64,000 bases of DNA from Owenia fusiformis (taxonomy: Eukaryota; Annelida; Polychaeta; Sabellida; Oweniidae). Positions within the stretch are counted from its first letter, which is position 1, and every line of letters starts with the position of its first letter. A program made the translations under genes and the position numbers. The stretch is from the NCBI GenBank assembly GCA_903813345.2, contig CAIIXF020000003.1:1766109-1830108 (forward strand), read 5' to 3'. A model generated the notes under the pieces. The model was not told the DNA's origin and ran no database searches. It worked only from the letters and a program-made list of their open reading frames with translations. This document shows positions 17,601 through 55,837 of the stretch, piece by piece.

Positions 17601-18436
17601 TGACGCTTAATCGAAGAAGGAGTGCTTGATAAGCCTCCTAGATGTGCACCGCATACAAGCGGAGTTGACAGCTGCAACCTCAGCACCTAATACCCCTACA
17701 TTGGATAGTGTTCGGATTATAATAAGCATTTTGGGTGCACAGTTTCCCACATACCAGTTCCTGCACTAGTAATAACCACTAGGCAAATTGAGAGACCAGT
17801 TAAATTTTATAAGAAACGAACAACAGAGAGAAAATTTTATTTGTCAATTGCTGTTTTTTAGACATTCTCTTCAAAATGTCTCATGTTAAAAGATTCAATA
17901 TTGTACACTGCGCATCAATATAATGCAATTTATGCCACATAAGTCAAATAAATGGGGTATAAAAACTTGGGGTTCAGCAGAAAAATATTACATATTGCAC
18001 ACGCCATGCCTCCTTTGTGACGTTTAAGTGCATATGATCACATAGAATGCAATCATTTTAGATGTGAAGTCATTTAGAGCAACCTTAGAACAAAGAACAA
18101 AGCAAATGGAGAATTGCTTAGTTCTGCCTAATATCAATAATATCAATCAATATTGCTTAGTTTTGCCCTAATATCAAACAACAATGACCAATTCAATCGA
18201 AGGAACAGCATTAATGTACACAGCATTTCAGAAACACTGAAACACAAAGCAAAAAAATTGTTGACGCACTTAATGTGAATGGCATTCAAATAATCAGGTA
18301 AGATTTTGAATCTCAAAATTAACACATGCAATATAGGCTTGCTTTAACATTTTTACATTGTCACCAAATGTTGTTTTGACTGTTCCTATAAGCCATGATC
18401 ACTTCAGGTATACAGTTTACCTGTAAAAGATGTTGA
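14700..18436. other. Long stretch with little coding signal
   Basis: Weak candidates are a 48-codon ORF at 15612-15758 (acidic, IESDFEVSDDSQGN), a 63-codon ORF at 16625-16816 (RYDFYFFAESKWDIRGHAF) and an open stretch around 17755-17862 (RQIERPVKFYKKRTTERK). None has a recognised family or splice context good enough to call. The rest is AT-rich intergenic or intronic DNA. Confidence 0.35.
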
Positions 18437-18533
18437 TTAACCCTCTCTTTACGGGACCCCCTATTTTCGTTAAATATTTTACGATGGAAAGACCTCATTT
18501 CATGATATTGATTGTCGGGCACAAAAGGGTTAA
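18437..18533. repeat. Inverted TTAACCC motifs at the left end of the piggyBac unit
   Basis: TTAACCCTCTCTTTACGGG at the edge and the reverse complement of 18516-18533 (TTAACCCTTTTGTGCCCG) form a terminal/subterminal inverted pair about 97 bases across. piggyBac elements commonly need subterminal inverted repeats for transposase binding. The inner copy looks closer to a typical piggyBac end than the outer one, so this could also be a short end-to-end derivative. Confidence 0.5.
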
Positions 18534-18719
18534 CATCCGTCAACTATTTACAAAACTGAACAAAAATATTCAGTTTTTCTTACCTGGACTAAGTTTTCAA
18601 GTGTTAATGCACTGGTATCACGTAAATTTATGTTTTTGTTGGAGAAAATTTTCAAACCGTTGAATTTTAAAAATGGCAGTTCTCGCGCGAAATCGCGCGT
18701 GATCTCCATACAAGCAGAA

Positions 18720-21700
18720 ATGGCGTCTCAACGACCAGTGAGAGGCTCTGCAATACGGGCTCGTGAGCTCTTCCAGAGAGGGTTTGGGGAAGATGGGGAC
18801 GATGATGTTATGTCCGAAAATGAGGAGGATGGTATGGATGAAGATATGTTGGAAGATGATGAGTAAGTTGGGTAAAATTCGTGACTGAATAGAGATCGTA
18901 ATTTTTTTTAGTTTTTGAAAAATTAGCGCTTAGACACTAAAACCCATTGTAGTAACATACTTCCGTATTTGCCGAGTGGGCGATAATAGAGTAGTCTAAT
19001 TCGTAATATTTTCAATCATCATCTTTTTCCAGAAATACGCTGAATAATTGTGATTATTGCATTCTGTTATCGTTTCATATAGCTGGGGAATGAAGTTTCA
19101 TGTAATGTTAAGTCTAGAATACACCTTCATGTTAATGATAACAGTCAAGAAATAGCTCAGTTTTCACTTTGATTTTCAACAGTGTATGAATACATGTAAG
19201 TCATGACCATGCTTATTTAGATCAATTTATTTTTCAATCATGAGATAGAAACAGAATGATAGTGCTCCCTATTAATTTTCAACTCTTTTAGGTCAGATGA
19301 TGGTGTAGATATTGGAGATCAGCAGCCCCAGCAACGGAGACATCGTGGAAGGAATCCCAATATACAAGTGCCTGTAGAAGTCGGTGCAGGAGATGCTCCA
19401 GCCCAGAATGGCCAGGTAATATATGGATATGATAACAATGATATTGAGCCTTTCAGGGTTCGATTCGCTCCAAGAAGACCACCTGGTGTGCAGCTTGGAA
19501 GGCTGACAAGAAATGGAATATTACAATATGTTACCCCCCTTGCAATTTTCTCCCTCTTTTTCAACCAGGACATCCTCCAGACCATTGTGGATAATACGAA
19601 TACCTATGCTAGGCTTAATATTGCTAACCTTCCAACTTATGGCGACCAACAAGGAGAGTGGTTACCTACAACGGTTGATGAAATAAGACAGTTTCTGGCC
19701 TGCCTCATATATATGGGCTTTGTAGACGTTGCCACAATTTCACGTTATTGGTCAACCCAAGCCCTGTACAATGGGCTTTGGGCAAGACGCTTCCTCAGTA
19801 GAGACAGATTTACATCTATTCTTGCCATGCTGCATATTTCTGATCCATTAAATGAGCCAGCATTAGCTGAGGATAAGCTCAGAAAAGTTCGAAACCTCAT
19901 ATCCCATGTACAGAATGTCTGCATAGAGCTCTACCAGCCAGGAGAGAACATTTCCATCGACGAACGCATGGTAAAGTCAAAGCACAAGAGTGGGATAAGG
20001 CAATTTAACAAGGACAAGCCTTGTCGCTTTGGGTTTAAAGTCTTTGTTCTGGCAGAAAGTGACACAGGATTTACCTGTAGGTTTAAGGTTTATACTGGGA
20101 AAGCAAACACACCTATAGGGGACAATGGACTTGCCTATGATGCTGTAGTTAGTCTTATGGATGGACTCCTGAACCAAGGGTATAGAGTGTTTTATGACAA
20201 CTGGTATTCTAGTATCCCCTTGGCAGATTACCTTGCAGACAATGACACTGTGTGTTGTGGGACCATCCGTGACAATCGCCGTGGTATCCCGGAGGGGCTG
20301 AAACAGCAATGGCGAGGTGTCCAGAGAGGTAGCAATGTTGCTGTTCCCCATTCCACTGGTTATTTGTTGACTTTTTGTTTCCCAATTCATATTTTCTGTG
20401 TATTTGATGATTGCAATAATTCCTGTCTTCCTAATTTCTGTTACAATTTTTCTTAGCTTTTATTTAAATATAAAAGCAATTGTTCCACTTTGCCTTGAAA
20501 TGCTGAACAATACAGGGACTTTTTTACATATCATCTTAAAATAGATGCCAGGAATTACAGTAATCATCTGATCATATGTTGTTTCAAATTAATTAATTCA
20601 TATTTCTATTTAGTTTTCAGATACAACTATGAGACCCTACGACTGACACTAGGTTTCAGATTCATGTTAGCTAATTTTATTAAAATTAAACTAAATTGTT
20701 ATCTTATTTACTAAAAAAAATTCTAATTTTATTTATTCTTTTGTAGAAGCTGTTGACACAATTCTCCCTACTACTTAGATCATTAAACATGTTAAATGTA
20801 AAAAATACATCACGCATTTCAGTGTGGATCATAAAAATCAATATATTTAATAAAACAGTATAAATAAAATTTATCAAATCAATCAATAATTCATCAATAT
20901 AATAACATATACGTGAAGTTCATAGAGTATTTGTAGTCAAAGGCCCTTTAACAATATACTGATAAAGCTGAATACTTTCTGATATAAACTGAGATCTTCA
21001 TATTTTTCAGGCAACATGAGGTATGTCAGGGAGGACAAAAAGCTTTTTGTTCAGTGGCGTGACAATAAGACAGTGACAGTACTTTCAACACTAGGGAATG
21101 CCTCTACTTCTGACCATGTGAAGTAAGTCTTGCCATTATATCCACCATGCAATATCACAAACTATATGTTGTATACAAGCTCTGAAAAAAGAATTTTGCA
21201 TTTATCCTTTTAAGTATAGATGGCATCTATGCTATCCATGCTTGACTCACTTTGAAATGTGAAAGACACTGACAGTGACCATTGACAATGTAAATTAATG
21301 TATTCGGTGAATTGAATAGTTTCCCATAAACTAACACCAGCTGTTGGTGGTGTATTTTGATTGAAATGATAAAAATCATGAGCAGGCAACATTTAGGAAA
21401 CAAAAAGGAAAGCAACAAACAATAAAACAACCCATAGAATAGAAATCTATTAAAACTAAACTTGTAAACTAATTATTCTGATGTATTATTTTTGCTTATA
21501 GTCGTACAGTGAAAGTCAATGGAGAGTGGCGCAGGCACATTGTCCGTCGGCCTAGTGTTGTCCGCATGTACAATGAAGGAATGGGTGGGGTCGACAAATC
21601 TGATCAGCTGATAGGATTGTAAGTACTATTTTCTCATGTTTTATTCTTTAAAGGCAGAATCTGATCTAAAGGGGTGACAAAATTACAAGCAACATGTATA

Positions 21701-22892
21701 ATTGACCTACCAATCTATTCCCTACAATATCAAATACAATATCTCCCAAAACATTCACAATATGTTATAAATTGGTGAAGTTATTAATGATTCAAAGTGC
21801 AAAAATGAGTGAAAAATGTTTAAAATTCTCCCAAATAATAAGAATGGTGACCATTCTTATAGAAAAATAATACATTATGTAAAAATCTTTAGTTTTCCTG
21901 TAATAAAGTATGCACTTTTGTGATTTTTAGAAAATAGATATGACAAGGAATGACATGAGCCAAAAATATTCTAAAATTGAAACAATATTTTGTTTAGCCT
22001 GCTCGCTATATCTGATTCTCTCTTTAAGGTAACATGTTTAACATGTTTTACCCCTCGGAATTAAAGCTCCTGTTTTGTTCATGTGCTACTTTTATATATC
22101 ATCTTTAACATTTGGTTTTAGAAATCGGTGTAGTGTCAATGGAGTATAAACTTAGGTTCAATTTGGTTTGCATATTTTCAGGTACAACATCATTAGGAGA
22201 AGTCTGAAGTGGTGGAAAGTGTTTTTCTTCCATATGGTAGATACATCAGTGGTTAACTCATTCATTATATTCCAAGAGCTGCAGCATAAATTCCCAGATG
22301 TCCCTGAGCTTCAACGACCATCTTGTAAGTTTTCTCCATGTTAAATACATGTATTGATGAAACCTCTAAGCCTTTTAACAGTATGATAGAAAATTTCTTT
22401 TATTAGATTTTGGGTCATTTGATTTAGTTTCATCTTACTATGAAGTGCGAAGGAAAGTCCATTTATAGTGTGTTTGCGTATCAGGTGTTTCTTCCCAGGT
22501 GGTTAGGCACACCAAAGTTGGTATTTTGATAGGTGTCTAGTAGGAAACTTAAATTTTTATTGCAGCAAACACCAATTATTTTTGTAATTGAAAGAAAATT
22601 TTATAACATTCCAGGCTACGGTCAGCTTGAGTTTAGAGAGGAGTTGGTGAGACAATTTGCCCATATAGAGCTGAATGAGGAGGTACCAAGACCCCGTTGT
22701 CTAGCTCCTAGAGTTGACCCAAGTCCCCATTTGCCAGTCCACAGTGGCATGTCACGAAACTGTCGCCTGTGCTACGCAAATAACAAAGTTGAAAGAAAAT
22801 CCCAGTGGACGTGTAGCAATAGAAACTGTAGAGGCAACTTGTGCCTGAATTCAACTAGAAACTGTTTTTATAACTACCATATTAATCATTAA
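18720..22892 (+). CDS. piggyBac transposase (PGBD-like), six exons, intact
   Basis: Exons are 18720-18862, 19292-20328, 21011-21122, 21502-21618, 22182-22324 and 22615-22892. All introns are GT-AG and all five junction phases agree, giving 1,830 bases or about 609 residues without a stop. Residues 1-90 are acidic and disordered, as in other family N-termini. The DDE_Tnp_1_7-type catalytic region contains FSLFFNQDILQ near 120, RRFLSRDRF near 205, NISIDERM (D271), VFYDNWYSSIPLA (D350) and EGMGGVDKSDQL (D462). These three aspartates fit the catalytic triad of the family by position and context. The C-terminus (about 570-609) is a cysteine-rich zinc-binding domain starting CRLCYANNKVERK. The protein would excise and insert DNA at TTAA sites in the nucleus. 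Five introns are unusual for a piggyBac transposon ORF, so a domesticated PGBD gene is the main alternative. TTAA-type ends nearby favour a transposon. Confidence 0.88.
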
Positions 22893-23649
22893 TATGATAT
22901 GTAAACATATGTTATCAGAAAGCCATGTTACCAGAGAACCTTTAGCTATTATTGTATGCATGATAAGGCAAACAAAATGTTCATTTATTCATTCAATGTC
23001 TCTGTAAAACAATGTATGCACACTATATAGCGTATAGTGCATTCATGTATCTTATTGTTTCTCGTATCGTGACAATGTATCATGATACACATCATATTGT
23101 GGCATACTGTATCATACTGTATCATAATAACACTAACTGACACTTACATAAAGCAACATACCCATAGAAACAGTTTTCTGTGATCTTCTTGTTATGGCGT
23201 GAACACTGTTGATTACAATTTACATATTGTGGAGGTTATCAGTTATGTTGTTATCTATAGATTACAAACGGGAAAATATGTGAGATTTTTTATCGATTTT
23301 TTAAGCTTTACCCCTAAATAGGCTTAAACAATCAGGACATTAACATTTACTTAAATTGCTAACAATTTTATATAAATGAGATACATATGTACATGTATTG
23401 TAGTTCATGTTCTAAAGTTTGATATGGTACCAATAAGACAACTGTCGATAAGAAATTGAGTAAATAACATTGTTATTTGTGATGTAAAGATTTGGTAATT
23501 TTATCGATTTTTGAAGCTTCACCTGTAAATGACTGGTGATGACATCACCTAATTAGCATAATTTATGTATAGTCTATGTAAATAAGATGTTCTCATGTTC
23601 TTAGCTTTCATATGGTACCAAGACAGTTTATTAAATAATGAGGAAGTCA

Positions 23650-24530
23650 AGCCACACATTTATTTGTAACAAGTGATTACCTTTCATGGTCATTTTTGCT
23701 CCGAAATGCACAATTATCAGCTTTTGCGATATTTTGCATAAATTCAGTAATTTTCAAAAAGCTCCTTTATCATTGCTTTTTGGAGTTGTAATTCAGGAAA
23801 TATATCATTGGAAAGCTTGGAACTCATAGAAAATAGATTAAAAGTATTGTTGATATTGAAGTAAGGTATTAGTCCAAGAAAAATTTCATAGCACCATTGA
23901 TCATGAGATTTTTGAGATTTTTTTGAGATTCTTACGAGATTTTCCTTTTTTCGTTGAATTGTGACATCATGATGACGTCATCTCATTTACATAATTTATT
24001 CAATTATATGTAAATAGGATAGTGTATGCTTTTGGGTTTAATTTGATACCCCAATTGTAATGATTGCTTGGATAATATGGAAATAACAGTATTTTATTTG
24101 TGATATTAGTTCTTATCTCTTATGGTCATTTTTGCTCCAGAATGCACATTATCAGATTTCGCGATATATTACAATATTTCGTGTAAAACCAGAAATTTTC
24201 GAAAAGATCTCAATTCGTCATTTTTTGGAGTTGTAATTCAGGAAATATATCATCTGAAAGCTTGGAACCCCTAGAAAACAGATTTAAATTATTTTTGTGC
24301 TATTGTTGTAAGGTATTTTCAAGATAAATCTCATAGCACAATTGATCATGATATTTTGAAGATTTTTGTTTTTTTTGATGACCTATGACGTCATGATGAC
24401 GTTATCTAATTTGCATAATTGATTAAATTATATGTAAATTGGATAGTATATGCTCCAAGGTTTAATTTGATACCCCAATTGTAATGATTGGATGGATACT
24501 ATGGAAATTACAGTATATTTTGTAATTTTG
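23650..24530 (+). repeat. Two tandem diverged units of about 435 bp in the piggyBac 3' region
   Basis: The block starting GGTCATTTTTGCTCC at about 23689 recurs at about 24125. It carries TTTTTGGAGTTGTAATTCAG, a TGACGTCAT-type segment and TAATTTGATACCCCAATTGT in the same order in each unit. Shorter related segments (TTTATCGATTTTT...AAGCTT, then ATGACATCACCTAATTAGCA) occur at about 23290 and 23500. The whole 23280-24530 region therefore seems built from diverged repeats. Each unit carries TGACGTCA- or TGACATCA-like (CRE-like) motifs. Confidence 0.75.
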
Positions 24531-24581
24531 TGCACAATTATTGATAAAATGCCCAAAAACCCTCAGTAATGAAGGAGTTAA

Positions 24582-26323
24582 TAACTTATGCTGCAACAGT
24601 TCAAGAAAGAAACTCGCAAGAATATTTAATGGCCTCCTCTGTAAAGGTTTGTAAACTAATTGGGCCCTGCCTCCTGTTATATTTACAGATCATGGATGTT
24701 GCAAAAAAGGTTATGTCAACAGTAGACAACATCACATCAAATTAAGGCCAAAAAAAGCTGTTGTGGGTTGAGGGGGAAGAATGTCTTATGCAATGTATGG
24801 AAACGATGAATTCTCAGAAATGCAATGTAGCTGAGTGACTGATTAACATGATGAAGAGCTTTTTGTGTGGTGAAGGAATAATTATCTGAAAGATTACCTG
24901 AAGATTTAGTGCTAAAAAAAATTCTACAAAATCGAATAAAAGAGAAAACAGAGTATATAATTCATACCATTGAAGTTTATATTGTGAAAAATGTACACAC
25001 ATGAGTAAATACAAGAACATAATGATGTTATTTGTAGAAAGGGGGATCATAACCAGTATTGATGATTATAACGATATATTAGATCAAACATTACTGCAGC
25101 ATAGTGTCAACAGAGCAATACATAGAGCTTATACAGGATGCTCCTTAATCAGATTATTACATTTTGTTGCTTTGGGTTGGGGATAAATACCTCACCCAAT
25201 CAATTGTGCATTCTTCTTATTTAAAGGAGTCCTTATTTCCACCCTGTCTTGGAGAGTCAAAAGCAAACAGGGAAAAATAAAAACCTACTACACAGTCGTG
25301 TGCTTGGGCATCAGAGGTAAGACATTACAAAATTAAAATTCTTAATTTCATCCTAGATTTTTACTTGTTAATTAATTATTAACATCATGAAGTGTAAACA
25401 TCACAAATGTGGAAATAAGACGCACAATCAAAGTATGAATTGGACCGGATCTGCAAAGGCTATGGAGCCTGCCAAAATTCTTTTATTCTATATGGCAGGG
25501 TTGAGTTTTTGTTCAAGAGGAGTGTTTGTTCAAGAGGAGTGTTTGTTCAAGAGAAGTACACGTAGGTGCCATTTTGTAATTTATTCATGTTCAATTTGTT
25601 CTAGCCTCTAGTTTATGCTATATTTAAATTGCATGTGCATTAACTGCATTAACTAGTATCAATTTTAGAGAAGTCACACTAACCTGAAGTTGACCCTGTA
25701 AGAGGCTTTACTTGATGTTCTCCATGGTTTCAAATACTAATTGCTTATCATGAAAGTGAAGCTATTTTTATCAATTGATTATTAATGATATTGTGGAAAC
25801 ATGTTAATCAAAATAAGTTTAAACTTACTACTGTCGTTGATAAAGTGAGCAATTTATAAAAAAGATTTGATTTTAGGTTTTATACTGAATGCAAGGCTAT
25901 GAGAATGCTGAATAGCACAAAGGATGACATAAACCAGTTGTAACTATGTTATCTTTCTATTATAATGTATTTTATTTGTACAATTGCCAACTTTTACACA
26001 CAATAAAAAAACAAAAAACTCAACCATACTACCTTCTGGTTTAGTGTTGGAGATTTCCTTTGGAACAATAAAATAAATAAAAAGAACCAAGATTTAAAAA
26101 AGATGTACCCCAAAGGTATGAGGTTTAGAAAAAAATAACAGCATGTAGCAGTCTGTGATTTAACAATGGTATCAGAAAAAATACTTGTCATAAGGAAATT
26201 AAATTGGGAATATATATATATGCATTGAGGCAGTCAGATAGATAAACTTCCAACAAAGGACATTCAATGTGTTTCAAAGATGTTCATCGCTAAGGTGATC
26301 CATTTTATTTTCACCAATAATTA
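24582..26323. other. AT-rich stretch, no firm gene
   Basis: Short ORFs at 25001-25186 and 25387-25611 are unrecognised. Within the second, an 18-bp unit (TGTTCAAGAGGAGTGTTT) is repeated almost three times at about 25509-25556. No exon with good splice sites was seen. Confidence 0.35.
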
Positions 26324-53149: not shown

Positions 53150-53655
53150 AGCTCCAGTTTTAGATATTTTGCAATTTTCAGCTAATTTTAATATTTTCAT
53201 CAAAGCAAAATGTATATTATCTATTGATTTTTTCAGTAGAACCAAATAGAGCTTTGGCACTGGCAAAGATGATGAGAAGTGTTGAGCAATTCAATCAATT
53301 GCAGAATGACACATGCAAGACACAGGCGAATGGACAATCCTCTGGAGAATCAGACACTTATCCATCTACAGATGAAACTAGTGAAAAGGTATTGTATAGG
53401 ATGCCAATGTTGCCATAACACTGATCTCTTAAGGTAGAAGGAAGTTGTTTAGATATTTCCATTTTATTAAACAGGCCAGGTCTAAACACGGTGGGGGGGG
53501 GTGTCGATGGTTCAGCACTCTATTGGCTGAAAAACAAGGAATATTTGTTCTAGTTTTGATATTTTGTGAATCCAATTCTCAGCTTATTTTAAATATCTTC
53601 ATCAAAACAAAATGTATATTATCTATTGATTTTTTCAGAAGAAAATGCACTAGAC
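53150..53655 (+). repeat. Duplicated intron end, about 105 bp
   Basis: AAAATGTATATTATCTATTG and the following TTTTTTCAG occur before both exons at 53237 and 53639, with about 80 further bases of similarity upstream. The duplication therefore includes the acceptor and the first bases of the exon. Confidence 0.85.
53237..53388 (+). CDS. Exon of unknown gene, EPNRALALAKMM
   Basis: The exon follows TTTTTTCAG, is open for 50 codons after two leading bases, and ends at a GTATTG donor. It reads EPNRALALAKMMRSVEQFNQ, then a Ser/Thr-rich acidic end (SGESDTYPSTDETSEK). Its acceptor region is duplicated before the next exon (53639), so the two could be alternative exons. No family is recognised. Confidence 0.4.
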
Positions 53656-54108
53656 CCTCATCACCTGGCAGAGACACTAGACCCTCATCACCTGGCAGAG
53701 ACACCAGACCCTCATCACCTACCAAAGACACTAGACACTCATCACTTACCAGAGTCACTAGACCCTTATCACCTACCAAAGACACTAGACCCCCATCACC
53801 TACCAGAGCCACTAGACCCGCATCATTTACCAGAGCCACTCGACCCTCATCAATTTCCAGAGCCACTAGACCCTCATCACCTACCAGAGCCACTAGACCC
53901 TCATCACCTACCAGAGCCCCACATACCAGATCTCAAATCCGTCACTGATCACCAACTACTCCTAGATCCAGAACACCTGCAGGATCCCCAGTGCCTTCCA
54001 GATCAGCAACATCCTCTTCACCTCCTATTTTTGATAATATTTTTGTTAACAAATAATGAACAAATAACCAAGGAACATTTGGATTATATTTCATCTAAAA
54101 CTTAAACT
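53639..54108 (+). CDS. Exon with 27-bp coding tandem repeats
   Basis: After a duplicated acceptor, about ten units of 27-30 bases (CACTAGACCCTCATCACCTA core) run to about 53925. Two frames stay open. One reads LDPHHLPEP repeats and continues to 54105. The other reads TRPSSPTRA repeats (Ser/Pro/Arg, typical of disordered linkers) with a stop at about 53946, but keeps the same composition (PTTPRSRTPAGSPVPSRSAT) beyond it. The phase of the exon start allows the LDPHHL frame with the same phase as the upstream exon's start. I cannot decide which frame is real. The repeats are recent enough to be well preserved. Confidence 0.4.
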
Positions 54109-55246: not shown

Positions 55247-55837
55247 ATGAACAGAATGTATACTGTCATAGGTAGGAGAAAAAGAAACCAGATGCGTATG
55301 TGGTCAATGTTATACACCGAAAAGAACCGTGTTTCTTTCCAAGATCAGCAAGGTGTTCTGATGCAATCTTTTGAGGAACCAGTAGTGTTGGCAGATGATG
55401 CATGGTCTAACATATGGGACTGTCAGCAAGTTGTTCTGATGCAATCTTTTGAGGAACCAGTAGTGTTGGCAGATGATGCATGGTCTAACATATGAGACTG
55501 TCAGCAAGGTGTTCTGATGCAATATTTTGAGGAACCAGTAGTGTTGGCAGATGATGCATGGTCTAACATATGGGACTGTCAGCAAGTTGTTCTGATGCAA
55601 TCTTTTGAGGAACCAGTAGTGTTGGCAGATGATGCATGGTCTAACATATGGGACTGTCAGCAAGGTGTTCTGATGCAATCTTTTGAGGAACCAGTAGTGT
55701 TGGCAGATGATGCATGGTCTAACATATGGGACTGTCAGCAAGGTGTTATGCTACAATCTTTTGAGGAACCAGTAGTGTTGGCAGATGATGCACGGTCTGA
55801 CTCGCCAGGTTCCACCTGTTTCAGTTTAAAGTTATAA
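55247..55837 (+). pseudogene. 26-residue tandem-repeat ORF, one nonsense change
   Basis: From the ATG at 55247 there are 35 unique residues (basic, MNRMYTVIGRRKRNQMRMW). Then come six in-frame copies of a 78-bp unit starting at 55352, 55430, 55508, 55586, 55664 and 55742. Each encodes SFEEPVVLADDAWSNIWDCQ with small changes. A unique tail follows (RSDSPGSTCFSLKL) to TAA. In copy 2 TGG has become TGA (55493-55495), and this is the only stop in about 197 codons. The repeats are nearly identical, so amplification was recent. The minus strand is also open across the repeats by the same periodicity. Function is unknown. It may be a repeat-bearing gene with a premature stop, or a minisatellite that happens to be open. 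Confidence 0.5.

Follow-up and report, generated by a model that had tools for sequence, protein, structure and literature searches.

The TTAA target site and CCC-type tips define the piggyBac superfamily of DNA transposons. Two described members, piggyBac from Trichoplusia ni (structure 6x67) and piggyBat from Myotis (9c0f), combine these features with a DDE_Tnp_1_7-type core and three catalytic aspartates. In Pavelitz et al. 2013 (PMC3902484), most other piggyBacs are described as having no introns in the transposase domain, and the chordate gene PGBD5, a domesticated piggyBac with several introns in that domain, as single-copy, devoid of terminal repeats and lacking three of four conserved Asp; that paper counts among the unknowns whether the introns of PGBD5 are older than its arrival at its present locus. 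In the open-access literature searched, mobile piggyBacs are likewise described as free of introns in the transposase domain, the exception found being Pokey from Daphnia, which is reported to have two ORFs with an intron in each (PMC4912750). No mobile piggyBac with several transposase introns was found in that open-access literature.

Here we describe an element of this kind from the annelid Owenia fusiformis, found in a stretch of 64,000 nucleotides that we call the window (assembly GCA_903813345.2, contig CAIIXF020000003.1, positions 1,766,109 to 1,830,108). We are highly confident that window positions 18437-24581 hold a complete, probably autonomous and very recently mobile DNA transposon of the piggyBac superfamily, with an intron-bearing transposase gene at 18720-22892. 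It has the core, the three Asp, the TTAA target and the CCC-type tips in common with piggyBac and piggyBat, but it is only 27% identical to each over the core and, unlike them, carries introns. As PGBD5 is described, the element resembles it in having several introns in the transposase domain and is its opposite in copy number, terminal repeats and conserved Asp (PMC3902484); it resembles Pokey as a mobile family with an intron, with five introns here against one (PMC4912750). The kind of element is ordinary and its form is unusual: the gene has five introns, and four of these have exactly the same places in other families. A lineage with several introns that is intact and has moved very recently shows that introns do not preclude mobility and that introns alone are not a mark of domestication; it also makes the question of where the PGBD5 introns came from testable by comparison of intron positions, and it is a natural example of a cut-and-paste element with a transposase that would rely on host splicing.

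The element, its gene and its copies

An earlier note on this DNA, made from the letters alone, had proposed six exons joined in phase by GT-AG introns into about 609 residues, with D271, D350 and D462 in catalytic contexts, and both proposals are borne out. The gene on the forward strand has five introns of 429, 682, 379, 563 and 290 bp, all GT...AG, with phases 2, 1, 2, 2, 1 in order, and a CDS of 1830 nt that gives 609 codons plus TAA and zero internal stops. A chance open frame is excluded since three of four near-identical copies keep the frame and all four keep the splice sites. Pfam PF13843 (DDE_Tnp_1_7) matches the product along its whole profile (positions 1-349 of 349; E=3.1e-84), and at E≤1 the product has two matches among solved structures, piggyBat 9c0f at 1.8e-46 and T. 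ni piggyBac 6x67 at 6.7e-31. All three catalytic Asp are kept, aligning with D268, D346 and D447 of the T. ni protein and with residues 243, 315 and 419 of the piggyBat chain; the published piggyBat residues D237, D309 and D413, as given in PMC11707139, equal these chain numbers minus a constant 6. The same note called the terminal cysteine-rich domain complete. Judged from its sequence this is likely, given a C-terminal Cys/His stretch with similar spacing in two related families described below (sub2 and sub3) and in intronless relatives, although Pfam zinc-finger models gave no match to the transposase at E≤0.001.

The span of 18720-22892 that had been singled out covers the coding sequence; the whole element is larger and extends on both sides of it (Table 1). 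Its ends read TTAA-CCCTCTCTTTACGGGACCCC on the left and, on the opposite strand, TTAA-CTCCTTCATTACTGAGGG on the right. These are terminal inverted repeats of the CCC/CYC type, imperfect here and clearer in sub2. Because they are imperfect, an inverted-repeat search did not reveal the right end among the 25 of 114 pairs listed, and it was comparison of copies that found both ends. For the ~380-bp repeat nested in intron 4 there are 3050 first-look candidates in the genome and at least 40 matches at ≥95%; the copies of this element account for four of these matches. An Rfam scan of the window at gathering threshold returned 0 families. Elsewhere in the window, at 53433-54105 and 55310-55750, ORFs arise from short tandem repeats (RPSSPTRAT-like; YVRPCIICQHYWFLKRLHQN unit).

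Table 1. Features of the element and its surroundings, in window coordinates.
Feature	Positions	Strand	Basis or remark
Host segment, left half; paralogue C3:418112-420220 without the element	17615..18436	+	99.5% over 823 bp
Whole piggyBac element with both TTAA, 6145 bp	18437..24581	+	four-copy comparison, colinear, ~99%
TTAA target-site duplication, left	18437..18440	+	homology between copies begins here; outer flanks differ
Left terminal inverted repeat tip, CCCTCTCTTTACGGGACCCC	18441..18460	+	imperfect match to right tip
Exon 1	18720..18862	+	ATG; acidic N-terminus
Exon 2	19292..20328	+	bulk of DDE domain; D271, D350
Intron 2	20329..21010	+	phase 1; splits Gly codon invariant in 13/13 aligned rows; donor GTAGCA, non-consensus
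Exon 3	21011..21122	+	spliced model
Exon 4	21502..21618	+	carries D462, the third catalytic Asp
MITE-like high-copy repeat, ~380 bp, nested in intron 4	21648..22027	+	carried by 4/4 copies
Exon 5	22182..22324	+	spliced model
Exon 6	22615..22892	+	Cys-rich C-terminus; stop TAA
Right subterminal tandem duplication, two ~430 bp units (23659-24095, 24093-24520), ~77% identical	23659..24520	+	
Right terminal inverted repeat tip, reverse complement CTCCTTCATTACTGAGGG	24560..24577	-	copy comparison
TTAA target-site duplication, right	24578..24581	+	copy comparison
Host segment, right half; same C3 paralogue	24582..25863	+	98.8% over 1285 bp

The genome searched comprises 498 Mb in 525 contigs, and a protein search of it gave at least 73 exon-level matches, including four exon-2 matches that are 99% identical. 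The family of the window copy (W), termed sub1, consists of at least four copies of the same extent and ~99% identity at unrelated genome sites: W itself on C3, and those at C1:16729436-16735697, C8:7536812-7543068 (-) and C1:54114831-54120997 (-). The other copies read include L004, L005 and L006. TTAA stands at both ends in three of the four copies, the outer flanks are unrelated in all four, and the 609-codon gene is intact in three. The broken copy is L006, in which the left TTAACC is gone, the right TTAA is kept and an 88-bp deletion takes the end of exon 6. Splice sites are identical across all four; W itself lacks, in intron 1, 120 bp that are present in the three others. Genome searches with the element ends returned 7 matches for the left and 11 for the right, 4 of the latter being the internal right-side repeat of sub1 copies, and the remaining matches include a few degenerate partial copies. 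Near-full copies are few, and therefore amplification has been modest and the family is small. A scan of viral contigs with exon 2 gave one stretch with a pattern match and no encoded relative.

Intron-bearing relatives in the same genome

Three further families show 66% (sub2), 55% (sub3) and 32% (sub4) identity to sub1 over the DDE core. The first of these, sub2, is a separate family with the same anatomy, and five copies were read (L007-L011): four end in TTAACCC...GGGTTAA, the left tip being altered in L007, and four carry an intact 609-codon gene, L011 having a deletion in exon 2. On the right side sub2 has a tandem pair of 420-bp units, 97% identical, with weak homology to the sub1 pair. 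The third family, sub3, is represented by loci L012 and L013. When the best-scoring models were compared, with one modelled locus each for sub2 (L008) and sub3 (L012), introns 2-5 were found in the same place and phase as in sub1, with a 0-nt shift in 8 of 8 cases. For intron 1 of sub2 the donor lies within ~3 nt of that of sub1 and there are two near-equal acceptors, of which the second-ranked at 2629, in the expected place, was used over the top-ranked at 2584; in sub3 the model fixes introns 2-5 only. The exon-peptide search also took in L013, L014 and L015, which the copy statistics leave out; L014 (C3:1453800-1463799) combines sub2-like exons 1-4 with a sub1-like exon 6 (93%), and is a composite or a nested pair. 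The earlier remark that five introns are uncommon in a piggyBac gene thus fits the open-access literature searched, but in this genome the arrangement is common to at least three families.

Another young intron-bearing piggyBac family is sub4, whose three copies (L028, L029 and L031, on C4, C4 and C67) are 99.4-99.7% identical in the longest aligned piece and have TTAACCCTTCTCGAAC at both ends. One sub4 intron lies exactly at the place of sub1 intron 2, in phase 1, and splits the Gly that is invariant in 13 of 13 aligned rows; the frame stays open where sub1 has introns 3 and 4, and for a second sub4 intron the acceptor was not found. Its right side holds an array of ~96-100-bp tandem repeats, and TA stands directly outside the right TTAA in three of three copies. 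A very divergent piggyBac, 25% identical to sub1 (sub5, locus L030; C4:23717500-23725499), has a phase-2 intron near sub1 intron 3, which is not counted as shared because it lies about three residues away in the alignment; a 42-bp tandem array occupies one end of the stretch fetched for this locus. The same genome also holds six transposase ORFs without interruption, which are 27-30% identical to sub1. A search with a family model scored 116 of its 164 candidates and yielded 113 matches; further intron patterns may be present among these matches, most of which fall outside the modelled set. In a tree the clade of sub1-3 is solid (100/100) and the deeper forks are not resolved, so that a single origin of the introns is neither shown nor excluded.

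Recent movement and alternative explanations

Two sites without the element bear on its recent history. Both 400-bp flanks of W are found again on C3, at 418534-418933 and 418938-419336, in a paralogue that shares ~2.1 kb with the W flanks. The four bases that separate them there read TGAA, which differs from TTAA by one base, and the paralogue is therefore not a perfect empty site. For the copy at C1:16.73M, the right flank has a single other full-length match, 5.49 kb downstream; from base 185 on, this flank consists of a common repeat that matches in part at many places. At this second place the left flank, a single TTAA and the right flank follow in clean succession, and within the fetched stretch the occupied and empty sites agree without a mismatch for 2440 bp of left flank and 1465 bp of right flank. 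The pair reflects either insertion after a very recent tandem duplication, precise excision, or two haplotypes placed in tandem by the assembler, and under each of these three origins the presence/absence difference is young; the clean single-TTAA site may be pre-insertion rather than post-excision. The surrounding stretch, C1:16727000-16742652, contains a perfect tandem duplication of at least 3.9 kb with no mismatch, which either exists in the genome or was made when the assembly joined two haplotypes. To the right of the C8 copy the flank consists of a common repeat, whose other listed matches are at 77-80%, and it led to no useful empty site.

Among sub1 copies the exons are about four times less variable than the non-coding DNA. 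In the three intact copies, variable sites number 4/1830 exonic against 39/4305 non-coding (p=0.002); with the broken copy added they number 5/1774 against 53/4255 (p=0.0002), a variation to which its lost left tip contributes. With the 5′ region dropped, the non-coding count in the intact copies is 35/4023 (p=0.003; p=0.0009 with the broken copy), and against introns alone (16/2341) the difference gives p=0.04, or p=0.007 with the broken copy. Codon differences are 3 synonymous and 1 non-synonymous between W and L004, and 2 and 1 between W and L005. It looks as if the sub1 copies descend via functional sources; gene conversion could be behind part of the low exon divergence. In sub2, tested on four of the five copies with L011 left out for its exon-2 deletion, the counts are 13/1830 exonic against 57/3637 non-coding (p=0.007), a contrast that fades without the 5′ region (p=0.07) and against introns alone (p=0.38). 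The sub2 codon changes relative to L008, synonymous to non-synonymous, are 2/3, 1/3 and 5/4; they do not show a sign of purifying selection, and sub2 adds nothing to the case made by sub1. Between sub1 and sub2, pS is 0.825 and pN 0.286; pS is saturated, and therefore the comparison supports only a conserved protein.

The explanation that we favor is a complete, probably autonomous transposon of the cut-and-paste kind. The host would transcribe the gene and the spliceosome would take out the five introns; the 609-aa DDD transposase would then bind the ends of the element, excise it scarlessly at TTAA and insert it at another TTAA. Since the DNA itself moves, the introns would travel with the element and not be purged by reverse transcription. 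We infer transcription, splicing, enzymatic activity and continuing movement from the sequence. The closest rival is an element that moved recently with a gene that is now silent or unspliced, for example because it was silenced, and it fits the same explanation in everything except present activity, so the odds of the two overlap. The low copy number and the one copy in four that is already broken speak for such a recent death, but three copies are intact and otherwise identical flanks differ in the presence of the element, and we regard it as possible, though on the unlikely side.

The earlier note had left a choice between a recently active element and a PGBD-type gene domesticated by the host and kept by selection. 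The first part stands, on dispersed near-identical copies, element ends and element-free sites. The second might draw on the intact frame, the introns and the low exon divergence between copies, with PGBD5 described as a known intron-containing domesticated piggyBac (PMC3902484). Against it, several copies of the gene lie at unrelated sites and come with TTAA and terminal repeats, and counterpart sites without the element exist; copy number, element ends and element-free sites led us to reject domestication as very improbable. That the three catalytic Asp are kept, where PGBD5 is described as without three of four conserved Asp (PMC3902484), is a weak argument, because human PGBD5 is reported to be able to induce DNA transposition (PMC4625184). 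Still less credit can be given to the idea that modelling created the introns and that the gene is a pseudogene whose open pieces arose by chance: the model was built from sequence alone and the intron-2 donor is weak, but introns 2-5 recur without shift at the modelled sub2 and sub3 loci and all four sub1 copies have identical splice sites. Segmental duplication of a host gene without transposition can be dismissed almost outright, for although recent segmental copies do surround two of the insertions, homology stops at the TTAA or within ~6 bp of it in four of four copies, the flanks differ, and duplicated flanks occur without the element.

Intron 2: origin and possible regulation

For intron 2, shared ancestry is a simpler reading than parallel gain, although the latter is possible because an AG|G proto-splice site arises naturally from the Lys/Arg-Gly codons at this place. 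A broader reading would join three things, that mobile piggyBacs had spliceosomal introns from early on and most lineages lost them, that PGBD5 inherited its introns and that splicing of intron 2 is regulated; taken as a whole it is speculative and, in our estimate, rather doubtful. As to origin, it would have the phase-1 Gly intron predate the split of families that are now ~32% identical, and PGBD5 and other domesticated genes could in that case owe their introns to a mobile ancestor instead of having gained them after domestication.

In the Drosophila P element, regulated splicing yields a repressor. By analogy we hypothesize a switch at intron 2: its donor is non-consensus in all four families, so its splicing may be regulated, and retention may give a truncated protein without the third catalytic Asp. 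Reading through intron 2 from the split Gly, a stop is reached after 42, 23, 51 and 6 codons in sub1-4, so the product ends ahead of that residue. The four donors are GTAGCA, GTAGTC, GTAATT and GTATTA, with G at +5 in none of them, against 9 of 11 other resolved donors (p=0.011, post hoc). This comparison at first left out the second sub4 intron, the sub5 intron and sub3 intron 1; with the former two added the count is 11 of 13 (p=0.006), and with sub3 intron 1 as well it is 11 of 14 (p=0.011).
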